DNA from: a virus
Length of the DNA: 24,169 nt
Strand: one strand, 5' to 3'
Virus record (IMG/VR): IMGVR_UViG_3300037225_000291
Span: 1 to 24,169 of that record
Shown here in pieces: positions 9,432-16,044 of the stretch. The translations under genes were made by a program, and so were the position numbers. The notes beneath the pieces are model-generated. The model ran no database searches, was not told where the DNA came from, and saw only the letters and a program-made list of their open reading frames with translations. Position 1 is the first letter of the stretch. Each line of letters begins with the position of its first letter.

Positions 9432-10262
9432 TTAAGAAGATATTTCTATCGCCTGTTGAATTTCATTTTCGAGAGTTATAATGCCGTCTGCCTCAACTGA
9501 TTCGATAACATCAATCGTGCTGCTCCACTCGCTCGTTGTCCTGAAGCGGATATCGAGCAAAGCCCCTTCCTCCGGCATGGTATCAAGGTACTGGTGAGCA
9601 TCGATCACATCTTCAGGCCACACCGGAGTAACGCCGTCTTCCCGCAGGTCTTTGGTAGATTCGGCATCCTGGACCATATCGGAAACTTTATTCATTAGGG
9701 TAAGCGCGTTCACGCCGAAGTAATGCAGATACAGCATAAACTCGCGCTCTCCCGCCTGCCGCCTGCTGCCATTATTGTCGGGCTGAAAAACGGCATCGCG
9801 TCCAATCTTGTGCAATGCCGAAATGCGACCCATGAGAACCGGAGTCGGCCAGCGGTGAATGTCCTGCATGTGCCACACCATTGCCGAGGAACCAGCGGTC
9901 CTGCCTCCTATACCGTTCCAGAGTGGCATGACTGAGTTGATCCACTCATAAATCCTGCGTTGCAGATATTCCTCGTCGAGCTGGGCTATTGCTGCCTTGA
10001 CCCTGGCAACCTCGCTCTGCGTACTGCCGTCAGAGTTCGTGGCAATGCAAGAATAGTTTCCCTCATTGTTGTATGAAAATTCGGAAATCGACATTGAGGC
10101 GGAGGTTTTTCCCTCTATCGCCTGCGCTGCCTGCTGTCCGGTGATGGTTCGCACATACCATTGATAAGATGCGGCGCCGGTGGCCACGATTGAAAGCACA
10201 AGGGCCGCTCCCAGCTTTATACGCTGAGAAACCGGCTGTGTGGTTATTGCTGGGGCGCTCAT
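9432..10262 (-). CDS. Tail terminator / neck protein with N-terminal Ig-like domain
   Basis: A 276-aa protein. Residues 1-88 form an I-set-like immunoglobulin domain: PAITTQPVSQRIKLGAALVL, the strand-C Trp at 35 (YQWY), and the tyrosine corner with Cys72 (YNNEGNYSCIATNSDG). The partner cysteine in strand B is replaced (Ser24), so no disulfide is expected. Residues 95-276 (LQRRIYEWINSVMPLWNGIG, a helical middle, then GALLDIRFRTTSEWSSTIDVIES) resemble tail-terminator or neck proteins of the LIC_12616 type. Order (connector, HK97 gp10-like, short protein, this, sheath) fits the role of capping the tube and sheath. An Ig-like domain on the terminator is unusual and would sit at the neck surface. 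Confidence 0.72.
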   Translation of the reverse strand: MSAPAITTQPVSQRIKLGAALVLSIVATGAASYQWYVRTITGQQAAQAIEGKTSASMSISEFSYNNEGNYSCIATNSDGSTQSEVARVKAAIAQLDEEYLQRRIYEWINSVMPLWNGIGGRTAGSSAMVWHMQDIHRWPTPVLMGRISALHKIGRDAVFQPDNNGSRRQAGEREFMLYLHYFGVNALTLMNKVSDMVQDAESTKDLREDGVTPVWPEDVIDAHQYLDTMPEEGALLDIRFRTTSEWSSTIDVIESVEADGIITLENEIQQAIEISS

Positions 10263-10610
10263 TTAAAAATCCTGCGGGTTTTCTATTTTTGTCACCACAT
10301 ACTCAAAATGCTCGAGCACGCCACTAGTGCAGGGATCCTTGATCGATACCTCGAACCACATACCATCGATTTGTAGCCAGTCTGCCCTCGTCGTTGACGT
10401 CGGAAGATTCAATTCATCCTCTGAAATCACGACATAATTGATTTTATTTCGCTTTCCTTCTTCCAACAGCGCAAGTTGCTGCGCGCTTGCAGGCTGAACT
10501 CCAGCAGCGACAGGCGCATCGGTATACCCACCGGTCGTTGCTTTACCGTATGGCATTGTTTGTGATACAAACCGCCGTCGGGTAAGAGTTTTATTTGCAA
10601 AAAAAAGCAT
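10263..10610 (-). CDS. Putative head-tail joining / neck protein
   Basis: A 115-aa protein. The middle is disordered-looking (KATTGGYTDAPVAAGVQPAS). The C-terminal half is beta-rich (NYVVISEDELNLP, then WLQIDGMWFEVSIKDP and HFEYVVTKIENPQDF), a pattern usual for small head-closure or tail-completion proteins. It starts 2 nt after the stop of the gp10-like gene and ends directly against the Ig-containing gene, so the three are co-translated. I cannot name the family from sequence alone; the role is inferred from place and size. Confidence 0.6.
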   Translation of the reverse strand: MLFFANKTLTRRRFVSQTMPYGKATTGGYTDAPVAAGVQPASAQQLALLEEGKRNKINYVVISEDELNLPTSTTRADWLQIDGMWFEVSIKDPCTSGVLEHFEYVVTKIENPQDF

Positions 10611-10612
10611 TA

Positions 10613-11179
10613 TTACTTATCCAGGCTATTTGTCCAAGTGACCGAATTCAGCTCTTGCGCGGTATCAATCAAAGGCTTTGTCGAGCCGTGTTTTTGTTTT
10701 AATGTGCTCGGTGCATTCTTTTGCCAATGCCCATGAAGTATCGAATTTTTCATTTTGTTTTGCATCCACAAACCCAGCATATCGAGTCCCTGTTTTGGTG
10801 TCAATTTTCCATCCAGGACCTGTTCGTATACTTTTGCCTTAAACGCTTTCAGGTTTTCAAAGTTACCATCAACAGCGGACCGCATTGCGGGGCGCGGTGG
10901 AAGTTTCCAAGGGGACGCCGAGCGTCCCGTCATAATCCCACGCATCGTTTCCGCTTGGGTCTTAGGAACCCCAAACTCATTCCAGGCCGCGATCTTGGCC
11001 ACCTCACCCATATCCTTGCTTTCAACGGGCCCTATTTTATGCCTGCTCGGATAGCCGACCTTTCCGCCTTCAGGAAATCCTACTTTGACGAATGCACCAT
11101 TGATTTCCCTAAGATCGCGGCGAAGTTGCGTGTAGACATTCCCGCCTTTTTCCTCAATTGATATTTTCGGGTGCAACAC
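10613..11179 (-). CDS. Virion morphogenesis protein (HK97 gp10 / Mu gpG-like)
   Basis: A 188-aa neck protein. The motif EVAKIAAWNEFGVPKTQAET (residues 58-77) followed by PPRPAMRSAVDGNF is the classical 'A.....G.....IP.RPF.R.A' signature of the HK97 gp10 / phage virion morphogenesis family, and the C-terminus (TKPLIDTAQELNSVTW) matches the family end 'PLIDTG.L..S...'. These proteins complete the tail or connect it to the head. The start is uncertain: the ORF begins with GTG, directly followed by TTG, with GAGAGG about 12 nt upstream. Base composition looks more AT-rich than the flanking genes, consistent with mosaic exchange. Confidence 0.78.
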   Translation of the reverse strand: MLHPKISIEEKGGNVYTQLRRDLREINGAFVKVGFPEGGKVGYPSRHKIGPVESKDMGEVAKIAAWNEFGVPKTQAETMRGIMTGRSASPWKLPPRPAMRSAVDGNFENLKAFKAKVYEQVLDGKLTPKQGLDMLGLWMQNKMKNSILHGHWQKNAPSTLKQKHGSTKPLIDTAQELNSVTWTNSLDK

Positions 11180-11196
11180 ACAACTTCGCCTCTCGT

Positions 11197-11565
11197 TTAA
11201 CAGGTGCCGCCCGCAGGCCCGCCCGGCACAATAATTCCTATCGTGTTTCCCTCAATCAGCTCCGCGAGCTGGGCCCCATAGGGTGTACTGCACAGATCCG
11301 AGTACCGCCGCATAAGATCGTCCGATACCCTGTACGACTGCGAAACACTGCGCTCCTGCGCCGACACCACCGCACCAGGCGTTCCCGGGCCTGTCTGCGG
11401 GTTCCGCGCGATCATGTGGCACACGCGGAGCGCTACCGCCAACTCGTAATTCTGCCCGAACCGGCTCTGGCTTGTCCGCGATTGCGCTATGGTAGTGAAC
11501 GCAGCAATGCGGGTATCCGCGGCATACGCCGGAGCCAGGGCAGAAATAAGATCGGAAATGCTCAT
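11197..11565 (-). CDS. Head-tail connector protein (DUF4054 family)
   Basis: A 122-aa protein likely to form the ring under the portal. The N-terminus (SDLISALAPAYAADTRIAAF) and the central YELAVALRVCHMIAR match DUF4054. The stretches SVSQSYRVSDDLMRRYSDLC and STPYGAQLAELI also match, where the conserved 'ST.YG..L..LI' ends the fold, and a Gly/Pro-rich tail follows. It lies between an unrecognised gene and the gp10-like gene, the position DUF4054 proteins occupy downstream of DUF2184 capsid genes. Confidence 0.82.
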   Translation of the reverse strand: MSISDLISALAPAYAADTRIAAFTTIAQSRTSQSRFGQNYELAVALRVCHMIARNPQTGPGTPGAVVSAQERSVSQSYRVSDDLMRRYSDLCSTPYGAQLAELIEGNTIGIIVPGGPAGGTC

Positions 11566-11568
11566 GGT

Positions 11569-12108
11569 TTACCTTGCGCGGTCTTCCTTACGAATGCTGG
11601 TTTCAATTGACTTGTACTGCCGTTTGATTGCGGCAAGCACGTTTGACCGCTTTTCAAGCTTGTCAATCTCGGTCAGCGTCGGCATCTTGAAAAGGTTTTC
11701 AATGACGTGAATCTGTTTTTTCTCAAGCGCCTTGACTTCTCCCGCCGGCGCATCTGCCGGAAGAATTCGTGTGCAAAACGCCACCACGTCGAAATCGGGG
11801 AGCTTAACGGATTCCGACACGTTCATGGCCGACCTGGTCGCGTCGATAGCTGAGGTCTCGTCGATTACTTCAATACCAGAGTTCGGATCGGATACTTCGC
11901 AATCCGCTTTGAATGCCGGGCTGTTGAGGAGCTCTTTGGGATGGTTGCCGGTGACGCCGGAAAAAACCGCAATATGTAGGACAGGCGGCTGATACGAAGG
12001 GTCAAACCTGTTTCTGCTCTTGTCTTTGGCAACCTTGTCTTTTTGCTCAGCGGTTTCCGTTGAAACCGTGTACGCGAGTGGATTTGTGGATTTGTTGTTG
12101 AGAATCAT
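11569..12108 (-). CDS. Unrecognised protein between capsid and connector genes
   Basis: A 179-aa soluble protein that I do not recognise. It has no membrane segment or signal peptide. The N-terminal 35 residues are polar and lysine-rich (ETAEQKDKVAKDKSRN). A short beta-like stretch (PPVLHIAVFSGV) follows, then an acidic middle part and a C-terminal helical part (LEKKQIHVIENLFKM, then KLEKRSNVLAAIKRQYKSIE). It is the first gene after the terminator behind the capsid gene and has a strong CCGGAGG ribosome-binding site. Its place next to the DUF4054 connector suggests a head-completion or minor structural role, but that is positional inference only. Confidence 0.75.
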   Translation of the reverse strand: MILNNKSTNPLAYTVSTETAEQKDKVAKDKSRNRFDPSYQPPVLHIAVFSGVTGNHPKELLNSPAFKADCEVSDPNSGIEVIDETSAIDATRSAMNVSESVKLPDFDVVAFCTRILPADAPAGEVKALEKKQIHVIENLFKMPTLTEIDKLEKRSNVLAAIKRQYKSIETSIRKEDRAR

Positions 12109-12140: not shown

Positions 12141-12171
12141 AAAAAGCCCCGGAACCATTCGGCTCCGGGGC
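12141..12171 (-). terminator. Intrinsic terminator after the major capsid gene
   Basis: On the minus strand GCCCCGGAGCC-GAAT-GGTTCCGGGGC (12171-12146) folds into an 11-bp stem with one G-U pair and a 4-nt loop. It is followed by TTTTT (12145-12141) and further T-containing sequence. It begins about 20 nt after the capsid stop. It would end, or partly end, the head transcription unit that starts at 15841. Confidence 0.88.
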
Positions 12172-12190: not shown

Positions 12191-13294
12191 CTAGGTCGAC
12201 GGGACTGACAGTTCCAGGATCAAGATGGACATGGGATACTGCGAAATCACGCCACCGACCTTGGCATGGCACGGGATCAACCACTCCAGGTTCTTTTCCT
12301 GGGGCGGCAGCTGCTCGAACGGCTGCGGGATATGGTACTGCAATTTGTCCGGGCTCCGCTTGTAGAACACGGCGACGTTGGTGCTTGTCGTCATGTCTGT
12401 GGGCGTCGACGGCCGCGGGCAAACCGCGTTGAGGTCGATCACGTACTCGATTTCCTTAACGCTCGGGTTGTGGGCAAGGAAATAGTCGGCCACGGTTGTG
12501 AACCCTGCGACCGTTCCCGATCCGCCGCCGCCAACCGGCAGCACGAACGGCGTTGTCGTGATTGCAACATATTCCGCGAAGGGCAGGAGGCAAGTGTCCG
12601 GCATTTCCACTGTGTTGGTGAGGGTGCCCTGCAGCGCGACAGCGTTCACCAGGTCCGCGTACATATATGCTGCATTTCCGGCGTTTGTCGTTGTCCAGAG
12701 GCCGTAGGCGGGCCGCGCGATAATCGCGTTGGGCTGGTACACCAGGCCGATGAGTCCGCCATACGTCGGGTCGTTTGCGCGTCCTAGGAAACCGATCTTG
12801 TTGAGCGTCTGCTCGTAATCCATGCGCGTCGCTTCCGCTTCCATCATTTCAAGCGGCACGTTCGCAAACTTCGCGGAGCGTATTTCGTCGAGGTTGTAGC
12901 CATAGGACCCGCCGAAGGCAAGGATCGGCCTGCGCACTTCGCTTGCCTTGACCGATGTGCGGGGCAGATCGTTCGCATAATTGGAAATGAGGCTGAAGGA
13001 GCCTGCGCGGTCGTACATCCTGAAGGTAATGGTTGTTGCGCCGGGACCTGCTTCGCTGTTGACCGGGATCAGGCGCGTGGCCTTGTATTCCGGATACTGC
13101 TTCCAGAATATCTTGGTCATGATGTGTTCGAGCTGACGCGAGAAAAACATGTTATAGCCCTCGGCGTCCTGCGAGTATCCGGGCCGCGTGCGAACGTCCC
13201 TCTTCCACATCTCGTCGAGCGAGTCCGAGTGGAAAGAGACCTTGAAACTCTCTCCCGGCTTCTTGGGTTCGTAATCCAGATTAAACGTGTTCAT
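12191..13294 (-). CDS. Major capsid protein (DUF2184 family)
   Basis: A 367-aa capsid subunit. It has an N-terminal arm (residues 1-30), a P-domain-like region with the long helical segment YNMFFSRQLEHIMTKIFWKQ, and a Tyr/Arg-rich part, YGYNLDEIRSAKFANVPLEM. This is followed by the family-typical MEAEATRMDYEQTLNKIGFLG and NDPTYGGLIGLVYQPN. The C-terminal AHNPSVKEIEYVIDLNAVCP and PDKLQYHIPQPFEQLPPQEK are also typical. All are features of the DUF2184 / major capsid family with the HK97 fold. Neighbours agree: protease/scaffold and decoration-like genes upstream and DUF4054 downstream. AAAGGA precedes the ATG, and a strong terminator follows the gene. Confidence 0.9.
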   Translation of the reverse strand: MNTFNLDYEPKKPGESFKVSFHSDSLDEMWKRDVRTRPGYSQDAEGYNMFFSRQLEHIMTKIFWKQYPEYKATRLIPVNSEAGPGATTITFRMYDRAGSFSLISNYANDLPRTSVKASEVRRPILAFGGSYGYNLDEIRSAKFANVPLEMMEAEATRMDYEQTLNKIGFLGRANDPTYGGLIGLVYQPNAIIARPAYGLWTTTNAGNAAYMYADLVNAVALQGTLTNTVEMPDTCLLPFAEYVAITTTPFVLPVGGGGSGTVAGFTTVADYFLAHNPSVKEIEYVIDLNAVCPRPSTPTDMTTSTNVAVFYKRSPDKLQYHIPQPFEQLPPQEKNLEWLIPCHAKVGGVISQYPMSILILELSVPST

Positions 13295-13357: not shown

Positions 13358-14443
13358 TTATTTCGTCTGAACGACCGCGAGGCCATTGTTGGCGTCCGTG
13401 CAGCCCTGGAAGAAATACCAGTTAGGCACGAGCACGCAGGTGCCGCCGTCGCTGTCGTTCCGGAGACCGCCGCGAACCGCGGTATACGCAACGCCGCCGA
13501 TTGTCGTGGTCCCGTCCTGAAGCCGGACATAGACGGGATCATTGGGCTGTACCGCAACTTCCGAGAAAACCCAGATACGACCGATGCTCATGCAGTTTAC
13601 AACGTCGTTGGCTTTGTAGCTGAGCACCAGCGTGCCGAGGTCCTGCTCTTTACCCTGCGTCTGCATGGACAGGCCAAGAACCAGGTCGGTTGTGTCGAGG
13701 GTGATCGTCCCAGTAAGCCCCGTGGAATGTATCGTTACCGCCCAGCTGGTAATCAGGCAGTCGAGACCATCCTTAGAATAGATGTCGAATGTCTTGTACG
13801 TAGTATCGCTCGCGTCAATATCCGCATCGTCGATCATTTCCATTGCTTCGAGTGCCGTGCAAATAGCGGCGGCATCCGTCGCCGGCGTTCCACTCATAGT
13901 AACTGCCGCCATGGAGGTTCCGTTTACCTTGAGGTTAAGAACGTCACCGCTTACGAAATTTGCACTTAGGACAAGCTGGGCATGATTGGCGCGCGGCAAC
14001 CTGGCAACAAACTGGCCGGGCGTGCTATATGACGGCATCCGGACGATGCCGAGCCCGAGGCCGATGGTTTCGTAGGCGACAGGCGAAACCACATCTTTGA
14101 CTTCCGCAATGTCGAAGGGCATTCCCACGATGCCGACCTTCGCGTATTCCGAATAGTCGCTCTGGCCTTCTATGCCGGAAGGGTTGAGCGCGTCGGTGCC
14201 ATAGGCGTCGGTCAAAACCGCGAGGCTGAAGGTAATCGTTGAGTCCCCGGTACCGCTTACCTTCGTCAAGGTCCCCGATGCCTCCGGGGTCCCGCTTGCT
14301 GTTGCTTTCAGTGTGGTCTTTGACGCGATGGTTGCCAGGACCGTGAAAGAGCAGCTGTTATTGGTGTAGACTGCGCCGGCAGTTGCGCTTGCGCTGGAGA
14401 CCGTAAAGGTCGCGAGCTTCGGCTGAAATCTTTTGATCGTCAT
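13358..14443 (-). CDS. Putative head decoration / cement protein with inserted beta modules
   Basis: A 361-aa protein between scaffold and capsid genes, the usual place of the decoration (cement) protein. The probable core is split. Residues 90-155 (KVGIVGMPFDIAEVKDVVSP then YETIGLGLGIVRMPSYSTPG) and the C-terminal part (IGRIWVFSEVAVQPNDPVYV, then VAYTAVRGGLRNDSDGGTC) resemble structural cement proteins. Residues 11-76 and about 160-235 are Thr/Ala/Gly-rich beta modules with counterparts in the tail sheath insertion. The usual cement protein is shorter, so the modules look like additions. GAAGGAG lies at good distance from the ATG. The cement assignment is moderate; that it is a virion protein is likely. 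Confidence 0.7.
   Translation of the reverse strand: MTIKRFQPKLATFTVSSASATAGAVYTNNSCSFTVLATIASKTTLKATASGTPEASGTLTKVSGTGDSTITFSLAVLTDAYGTDALNPSGIEGQSDYSEYAKVGIVGMPFDIAEVKDVVSPVAYETIGLGLGIVRMPSYSTPGQFVARLPRANHAQLVLSANFVSGDVLNLKVNGTSMAAVTMSGTPATDAAAICTALEAMEMIDDADIDASDTTYKTFDIYSKDGLDCLITSWAVTIHSTGLTGTITLDTTDLVLGLSMQTQGKEQDLGTLVLSYKANDVVNCMSIGRIWVFSEVAVQPNDPVYVRLQDGTTTIGGVAYTAVRGGLRNDSDGGTCVLVPNWYFFQGCTDANNGLAVVQTK
14216..14413 (-). repeat. Shared Thr/Gly-rich beta module, copy in the decoration-like protein
   Basis: Residues 11-76 contain AVYTNNSCSFTVLATIASKT, then ASGTLTKVSGTGDSTITFS. They align without obvious gaps to residues 91-155 of the sheath (8954-9148). A second, weaker shared segment follows in both proteins: VNG plus a Thr/Ala-rich helix, near 13739-13948 here and 8729-8941 in the sheath. 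Confidence 0.75.
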
Positions 14444-15088: not shown

Positions 15089-15676
15089 GAGCCTGCTCCT
15101 TTGTGTAAAGAGTGATTCTGGTTTTTTTCCTGTTTCTTCAATGTCGGCGGTATCCATGTTGAGGACCGCGACAGGCCCTGCCCGTCCGCGGTCTACAATT
15201 GCCAAGTGGTTGCCGCGTATTTTCGTTTGTCGATAATCGTATTCCTGCCCGTCTTCAGTGATGCCGGGTTCGTCGATGTCTTCCGAGTCATAGGCAAGGG
15301 ACAGGCCGCGGCGGCCGTCATTGACAGCCTGTATTCCGGCCTTGTCCATGATAATGCCGGTGATGCGCATATAGGTCCCGTCGCGCCGGATGTTTTCACC
15401 GATTGAGCCGATTTGGTACTGCTTTACATTGTCAGCGGTAATTTTTGGGGTGAGACCCATCTCGTGGTTGTTGATGATAGGCTTCAGCGCAAAGGACGCC
15501 ATGCTGTCGGATTTGAAAACCTCGCTTGGTGCCCGATAAGCGCGCCGGACCGATCCGTCAGGTTGGTGATAAATGAAAATGCCGCTGCGCGTGGCTGCGG
15601 CATCGAATTGAAGGTATCCCTCGGGCGTCTTGGTGACGCTTCCCATGGGAGAGCGGTCGTAGTAGGTTTTGAGCAT
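14510..15676 (-). CDS. DUF2213 prohead protease fused to capsid scaffold
   Basis: A 388-aa protein. Residues 1-175 are the DUF2213 domain, distantly related to prohead serine proteases. Candidate catalytic positions are His71 (IINNHEMG), Ser126 (GRRGLSLAYDSED) and His157 (IRGNHLAIVDRGRAGP). A linker of about 20 residues follows, then a scaffold-like part from Met197 with an N-terminal DGVEIDAPESIVNALVKA and a coiled coil at about 226-265 (VNTLTQDKATAKTSLDSVTA). It ends in a charged tail. An internal ATG at residue 197 has an excellent ribosome-binding site, so a separate scaffold is probably made as well. The first ATG directly follows a hairpin/U-tract, and its ribosome-binding site GAGGGG lies in the hairpin's 3' arm. 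Confidence 0.85.
   Translation of the reverse strand: MLKTYYDRSPMGSVTKTPEGYLQFDAAATRSGIFIYHQPDGSVRRAYRAPSEVFKSDSMASFALKPIINNHEMGLTPKITADNVKQYQIGSIGENIRRDGTYMRITGIIMDKAGIQAVNDGRRGLSLAYDSEDIDEPGITEDGQEYDYRQTKIRGNHLAIVDRGRAGPVAVLNMDTADIEETGKKPESLFTQRSRLMKYNLDGVEIDAPESIVNALVKARTDLGTSQATVNTLTQDKATAKTSLDSVTAERDAAKSEVVKLKAIDTNKLIQDGVAARIALVESAVLVCDAADLKGKTDAEIRLLVIKKVFPEMNMDGKSADYVGAMFDAAIKSGDTEQRRSALAKQRRAATSMDKGDGEDVDDKDQKNANTMLQDAYKQPCSMSVKKS
15096..15102 (-). promoter_or_regulatory. Ribosome-binding site of the internal scaffold start
   Basis: The coding strand reads AAAGGAG-CAGGCTC-ATG inside the DUF2213 gene. A Shine-Dalgarno sequence of this quality at ideal spacing (7 nt) within an open frame, exactly at the protease/scaffold boundary, is unlikely to be chance. 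Confidence 0.72.
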
Positions 15677-15723
15677 AAAAAAAGCCCCTCGAACAAGCGC
15701 TTGGCTTGCATCGAAGGGCTTTT
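15677..15723 (-). terminator. Hairpin plus U-tract overlapping the ribosome-binding site of the protease/scaffold gene
   Basis: On the minus strand AAAAGCCCTTCGA (15723-15711) pairs over 13 bp with TCGAGGGGCTTTT (15692-15680), with one G-U pair. The loop is 18 nt and contains the palindrome CAAGCGCTTG. A T7 run (15683-15677) abuts the ATG at 15676. The 3' arm contains GAGGGG, 8 nt upstream of that ATG and the only visible Shine-Dalgarno sequence, so folding would both signal termination and hide the ribosome-binding site. The element lies downstream of the promoter at 15841, making it an attenuator-like leader structure rather than only an end-of-operon terminator. Confidence 0.8.
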
Positions 15724-15805
15724 AAATGCATATCCGCTGTCTCGCGGAGGCACGTAGCCATCGATTTTAACTAATCAACTATTTCAAACAAAGAATGCCT
15801 AATCT
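15724..15805 (-). promoter_or_regulatory. 5' leader with alternative secondary structure
   Basis: Transcripts from the promoter at 15841 would carry about 130 nt of untranslated leader. Besides the terminator-like hairpin it contains nested complementary segments: GGCT (15759-15756) with AGCC (15720-15717), GTGC (15753-15750) with GCAT (15729-15726), and TCCGC-GAGACA-GCGGA (15748-15733). The outer pair uses bases of the terminator's 5' arm, so the two folds exclude each other. I do not recognise a known riboswitch or leader family. A frame beginning ATG at 15761 runs through the hairpin but has no ribosome-binding site. Confidence 0.45.
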
Positions 15806-15812
15806 CGAATTG

Positions 15813-15841
15813 AATATAGCAACGTTTTTAAAAAATGTCAA
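15813..15841 (-). promoter_or_regulatory. Sigma70-type promoter for the head gene unit
   Basis: The minus strand has TTGACA (15841-15836), a 17-nt spacer, then TATATT (15818-15813), with TG one base before the -10 (extended -10). The surroundings are AT-rich. The -35 box includes the TGA stop of the preceding gene. Transcription should begin near 15806 and run into the protease/scaffold, decoration and capsid genes. Confidence 0.85.
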
Positions 15842-16044
15842 CTAAATTCTTTTTTTTCTTGAATGTGCAGTTTTTCAACCTCTTCATTGGTCACCACTTT
15901 TTTAATGTCAACCGCACATTCCCGGATACCACCCTCGAAACAAATTAATTCGAAGTGGAGGGACAGTTTCCCGGTGTATCGCGGTGCAACGAGGACCCTC
16001 TGCACCGCATCGTTGGCTACCATGCCAAGCTCTTGCGGCTTCAC
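15838..16044 (-). CDS. Unrecognised small protein upstream of the head promoter
   Basis: A 68-aa protein starting with GTG, which overlaps the upstream gene's TGA (GTGA), so it depends on coupling. The sequence is a short beta-like stretch (GKLSLHFELICFEGGIRECA) followed by a charged helix (KKVVTNEEVEKLHIQEKKEF). No membrane segment, zinc motif or known fold is recognised. Its stop codon lies within the -35 box of the promoter at 15841, and it is the last gene before a 161-nt non-coding leader. Confidence 0.65.
   Translation of the reverse strand: MKPQELGMVANDAVQRVLVAPRYTGKLSLHFELICFEGGIRECAVDIKKVVTNEEVEKLHIQEKKEFS

Follow-up and report, generated by a model that had tools for sequence, protein, structure and literature searches.

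We found that the head maturation protease gene of a virus known from a 24-kb partial record is preceded by a sigma70-type promoter, a short leader and an intrinsic terminator, an arrangement shared by four independent relatives. The RNA between the promoter and the stop signal is probably able to refold and so override it, suggesting that head making is under an on/off switch. On balance we favour the interpretation that this is a transcription attenuator ahead of the head-gene cassette, off by default and opened by an effector.

The stretch of DNA that was analysed (the window) comprises 24,169 nt, positions 1 to 24,169 of IMG/VR record IMGVR_UViG_3300037225_000291. On its minus strand the head genes follow the order small and large terminase, portal, MuF-like protein, small genes, DUF2213 head protease, cement protein and major capsid protein. 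Relatives were found by viral contig scans with alignments of DUF2213, the capsid protein and the neighbouring small gene p68. The four independent relatives are L001 (on a contig shared with L004, L018, L019 and L039), L005 (on a contig shared with L020, L026 and L037), L025 and L040; the leader of L041 is identical to that of L040 and the two were counted once. The features of the window are as follows.

15838 to 16044, minus strand: p68, a 68-aa gene with no assigned function, directly upstream of the promoter and alongside the leader in 5/5 phages
15813 to 15841, minus strand: sigma70-type promoter TTGACA-17-TATATT with extended -10; L001, L005, L025 and L040 have a 17-nt-spaced promoter at the same place
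15677 to 15806, minus strand: predicted leader RNA of ~130 nt, its start assumed 7 nt past the -10
15756 to 15765, minus strand: putative antiterminator box AUCGA-U-GGCU, which pairs with the 5' arm of T1
15726 to 15753, minus strand: hairpin P1, made up of two short stems with an internal loop and enclosed by the antiterminator helix, a candidate effector site; similar in shape and different in sequence in L001, L005 and L025
15680 to 15723, minus strand: intrinsic terminator hairpin T1, -27.5 kcal/mol, with stems that covary across five leaders
15685 to 15690, minus strand: Shine-Dalgarno sequence GAGGGG within the 3' arm of T1, read from the sequence, with an unpaired probability of about 0 in the default fold
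15677 to 15683, minus strand: U7 tract of T1, read from the sequence, directly against the start codon
14510 to 15676, minus strand: DUF2213 head maturation protease (Pfam PF09979, 1.2e-40; PHROG 530, 5.2e-88)
13358 to 14443, minus strand: structural cement protein (PF22758, 3.3e-11)
12191 to 13294, minus strand: major capsid protein (PF09950, 2.5e-34)
12146 to 12171, minus strand: terminator T2 directly 3' of the capsid gene, also present in L019 and L020

The initial annotation had described an extended sigma70-type promoter 165 nt ahead of the protease gene, a 13-bp hairpin with a U7 tract against the start codon and, in the 3' arm of this hairpin, the only Shine-Dalgarno sequence, and each of these held in the window. 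The promoter hexamers (TTGACA at 15841-15836 and TATATT at 15818-15813, with TG ahead of the -10) give an 11/12 match, the best scoring in the 12-20 kb region of the window. The ATG at 15676 follows 165 nt after the start of the promoter, which overlaps the p68 stop codon. When the leader was folded, an energy of -53.4 kcal/mol was obtained, compared with -33.8 +/- 3.8 kcal/mol for shuffled sequences (z -5.1; 0/200 as good). T1 (15723-15680) consists of 13 outer and 6 inner pairs and runs into T7 (15683-15677) followed by the ATG, and GAGGGG (15690-15685) is the sole Shine-Dalgarno sequence ahead of DUF2213.

The DUF2213 proteins of the four relatives are 58-70% identical, and the leader sequence is strongly diverged (48% mean column identity). 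Directly ahead of DUF2213, all five phages have a promoter whose hexamers are 17 nt apart, then a leader that is 84-130 nt long, then an intrinsic terminator. T1 has a predicted energy of -17 to -37 kcal/mol across the five leaders, carries a run of T6-7 and ends 0-16 nt before the start codon. The -35 hexamer of L040, TTGCTT, is weak and falls below the scan threshold. L005 has a gene on the reverse strand that separates the promoter from p68; the unit of promoter, leader and terminator remains with DUF2213. Since the same order is found at the same place in four independent relatives, the arrangement is not due to chance.

The combination of promoter and terminator was found in 0/18 more distant DUF2213 loci, 8 of them from annotated phage records. 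Phage isolates carry only distant DUF2213 genes (36% or less), and the promoter is absent from the eight that were examined; scans of genome collections found no prophage relatives. Searching with a covariance model of the five leaders gave a single copy in each phage, where detection is by construction, no second copy in the available sequence of the five phages, and none in the distant loci. A DNA pattern search for the box returned only unrelated coding sequence, plus L018, which is on the contig of L001. Three unrelated phages, L047, L049 and L050 (Listeria B054, Rhizobium RHEph04 and Aminobacter Erebus), lack a matching promoter but have hairpins like intrinsic terminators shortly upstream of DUF2213, and given these, terminators ahead of the capsid module may be more widespread.

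In each of the three phages whose sequence reaches the capsid end (the window at 12171-12146, L019 and L020), T2 lies after the major capsid gene, and its stem differs in sequence among them; the sequences of L025 and L040 stop short of the end of the capsid gene. Because a terminator also follows the capsid gene in each phage that reaches this point, protease, cement and capsid form a promoter/terminator cassette, and the promoter, T1, the three genes and T2 are a single unit within the late region.

Elsewhere in these contigs, L019 has at 9650-9855 an insertion between a tail-sheath-like gene and the next gene, where the window has only about 50 nt. On the opposite strand this insertion carries another extended promoter, TTGACA-17-TATATT; it also has three perfect inverted repeats that interlock in a pseudoknot-like way, and there is no Rfam match. 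L018 encodes at 9755-11917 a portal protein with a C-terminal leucine-rich-repeat-like extension that is absent from the portal of the window, and the adjoining large terminase also looks different from that of the window.

Each of the five phages carries p68 together with the leader, and the distant DUF2213 loci yielded no p68, but phylogeny alone could account for this co-occurrence. The protein has no family match, its predicted structure has a low confidence of 69 and no PDB match was found below E 1; with these results we did not retain p68 as an RNA-binding protein. The gene inserted between p68 and the promoter in L005 (1687-2244, reverse strand) encodes a 185-aa secreted-protein-like product, the C-terminus of which resembles a type IX sorting signal; this hints that the host has type IX secretion, as Fibrobacterota do.

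The initial annotation also proposed that an upstream segment can pair with the 5' arm of the hairpin. We found this pairing in the window, AUCGA-U-GGCU (15765-15756) with AGCC-CU-UCGAU (15720-15710), at -11.9 kcal/mol; 0.5% of shuffled boxes match this energy, the box having been chosen after the fold was seen. The pairing excludes the T1 helix, with which it shares the T1 5' arm. When transcripts were cut before the 3' arm, those of the window, L001, L005 and L025 all folded the box, near the leader's 5' end, and the T1 5' arm around P1. The common shape is a helix of 3-5 bp, then a 1x2 internal loop, then a second helix that encloses P1. The corresponding pairings are CGA-U-AGUCUU with AAGGCU-CU-UCG in L005 and UUGA-U-GGUUCC with GGAGCC-CU-UCAA in L025; that of L001 is the same with one mismatch and is weak (-3.7 kcal/mol). 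L040 forms 4/7 template pairs in the common register and, as a reading of the sequence, a shifted variant, UAA-AUA-GCUU with AAGC-CC-UUA.

In a hand-set register 27/28 template pairs form in four leaders, compared with 9-16 after sliding by 1-3 nt. Three columns have double compensatory changes, C-G to U-A in L025 and G-C to A-U and U-A to C-G in L005. The antiterminator pairs were counted on the hand-set register; MAFFT sets L005 one base off, so RNAalifold reports little covariation on the automatic alignment. No other site is as good as the homologous box position in the window, L005 or L025; in L001 that position ties for best. In permutation tests the template ranks 2/24 for four leaders and 2/120 for five, and by duplex energy the native combinations of box and arm rank 4/120 in the five leaders. 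The T1 arms themselves covary, with native arm pairs ranking 1/120. Pairing with the GC-rich arm is nearly as frequent when the upstream leader is shuffled (fractions 0.06-0.62). In the comparison of related leaders for covariation that the initial annotation had named, four leaders keep the pairing, with double changes, and L040 fits only in a shifted register. The alternative helix on the T1 5' arm covaries in the window, L005 and L025, is weak in L001 and shifted in L040, in a comparison of only five sequences, and judging from these sequences it is probably an antiterminator.

The default fold is the terminating one, 6-16 kcal/mol better than the antiterminator fold, and therefore head-gene expression would need something that favours read-through. 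In the model that we favour, host RNA polymerase would start at the strong sigma70 promoter and, with the leader RNA in its most stable fold, would by default stop at T1, giving no protease, cement or capsid protein. While the leader is being transcribed the 5' box may pair with the T1 5' arm around P1. If something kept this antiterminator helix in place, the simplest candidate being an RNA-binding factor of the phage that acts on P1 during the lytic phase, polymerase would then read into the protease-cement-capsid cassette and end at T2. In the window and two relatives the T1 3' arm contains the ribosome-binding site, and there the same refolding may partly free translation. Among cis models, the simplest has an RNA-binding effector that acts on P1. 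A further step, that this is an undescribed family of phage leader RNA which senses a phage factor, perhaps a head protein or p68, such that conditional termination decides expression of the cassette and provides feedback or timing of capsid assembly, is conceivable but rather doubtful. Ribosome-mediated attenuation through a leader peptide is unlikely, since no short ORF with a Shine-Dalgarno sequence was found in any of the five leaders besides the start of, or overlapping, DUF2213.

The hairpin might instead act mainly on translation, hiding the Shine-Dalgarno sequence of the protease gene until a signal melts it. Three of the five leaders have this sequence within the hairpin (GAGGGG in the window, GAGGG and GGAGGG in L001 and L025), with an unpaired probability of about 0 in the default fold; when the antiterminator was enforced it was 0.30-0.53 unpaired, only 0.30 in the window. 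However, in L005 and L040 the Shine-Dalgarno sequence is downstream of the terminator while the hairpin and U tract are retained, so termination is the common element. We consider a translational switch highly improbable, and masking of the ribosome site was rejected as a conserved function. The initial annotation had proposed an attenuator-type switch on termination or translation; the attenuator layout is conserved, with a mutually exclusive, probable antiterminator that covaries in 4/5 leaders, but masking as a conserved feature did not stand. A constitutive, partly efficient terminator that tunes dosage or halts late transcription from upstream, with no switching, is very unlikely as well. 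It would agree with the similar hairpins in the Listeria, Rhizobium and Aminobacter phages that have no matching promoter, but a stop ahead of the capsid genes that is not conditional is difficult to account for, and because the promoter is upstream of the terminator in all five phages the terminator acts on the cassette's own promoter.

The leader could also be of the lambda pR'-tR' type, in which transcripts from a constitutive late promoter end at a nearby intrinsic terminator until a phage antiterminator protein of the Q or AlpA type is loaded onto polymerase at the promoter and lets it pass terminators, with the competing fold incidental. This would account equally well for the T1 covariation and has precedents: Q reads through a terminator upstream of late genes (PMC4825925), and AlpA bypasses intrinsic terminators immediately upstream of AlpA target genes (PMC7969949). 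However, the promoter is in the middle of the head module, no element is conserved in the -35/-10 spacer (2-12 of 17 positions identical in the five phages), although Q proteins may have diverged, and no recognisable Q is encoded in the window, itself a partial record. T2 is retained past the capsid gene, yet a processive antiterminator would ignore it, and the covariation of box and arm is left unexplained. We regard a Q-type leader as possible, though not what we would expect. Unlikely, in our judgement, is that the short transcript is itself the product, either a small RNA like StxS, which is produced between PR' and tR' (PMC7873438), or a dual small and messenger RNA like IsrK, whose masked ribosome site keeps the read-through mRNA silent (PMC4825925), to be opened in trans by the short RNA. 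The compact promoter-RNA-terminator unit in five phages fits such an RNA, and the masked Shine-Dalgarno sequence of three leaders would silence a read-through mRNA. Against it, the leader is strongly diverged, no unpaired seed is strictly conserved, the unit is always directly ahead of DUF2213, which points to action in cis, and nothing in Rfam matches at gathering scores.

A transcription attenuator predicts that short leader RNAs accumulate and that capsid transcripts rise only once the terminator is overcome. Accounts of how phages control late genes usually invoke dedicated polymerases, activators or processive antiterminators. A small attenuator ahead of the capsid cassette would, if true, be a compact way of timing or balancing head assembly, and a transferable genetic switch. 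Attenuators are well known as a kind, and this leader family appears undescribed. Consistent with the initial annotation, which recognised no known leader family, a search of Rfam 15 gave no match at the gathering score in the window or its relatives and only chance-level matches for the leader at a relaxed threshold, and in the literature searched, one library, a search for attenuators ahead of phage capsid genes gave nothing comparable.

The exchange of antiterminator and terminator through a shared terminator 5' arm resembles the PyrR leader and the ribosomal protein L10 leader, but the PyrR model scores 17.7 bits here against the 54 required. HK022 put is likewise a phage nascent-RNA element that could affect termination, and put RNA by itself suppresses termination of early genes (PMC9378689); it has no match here, and our leader has its own terminator. 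IsrK of the Gifsy-1 prophage shares a prophage promoter, a short RNA, a terminator and, with three of our leaders, a masked ribosome site, but it controls an antirepressor and adjoins antQ, and there is no match to it in sequence or Rfam. In the AlpA-controlled alpB leader of Pseudomonas aeruginosa a promoter and then an intrinsic terminator are immediately upstream of the first gene, as here, but the DNA element at which AlpA loads, in the stretch from -35 to -10, has no conserved counterpart in our phages. Lambda pR'-tR' shares with our leader a strong sigma70 promoter, a short leader and an intrinsic terminator just upstream of late genes. It differs in its promoter-spacer element and Q gene, as we found no conserved spacer element in the five phages and no known Q gene in the partial record, whereas the leader described here is inside the head module, with a conserved terminator after the capsid gene and an apparently covarying competing fold.
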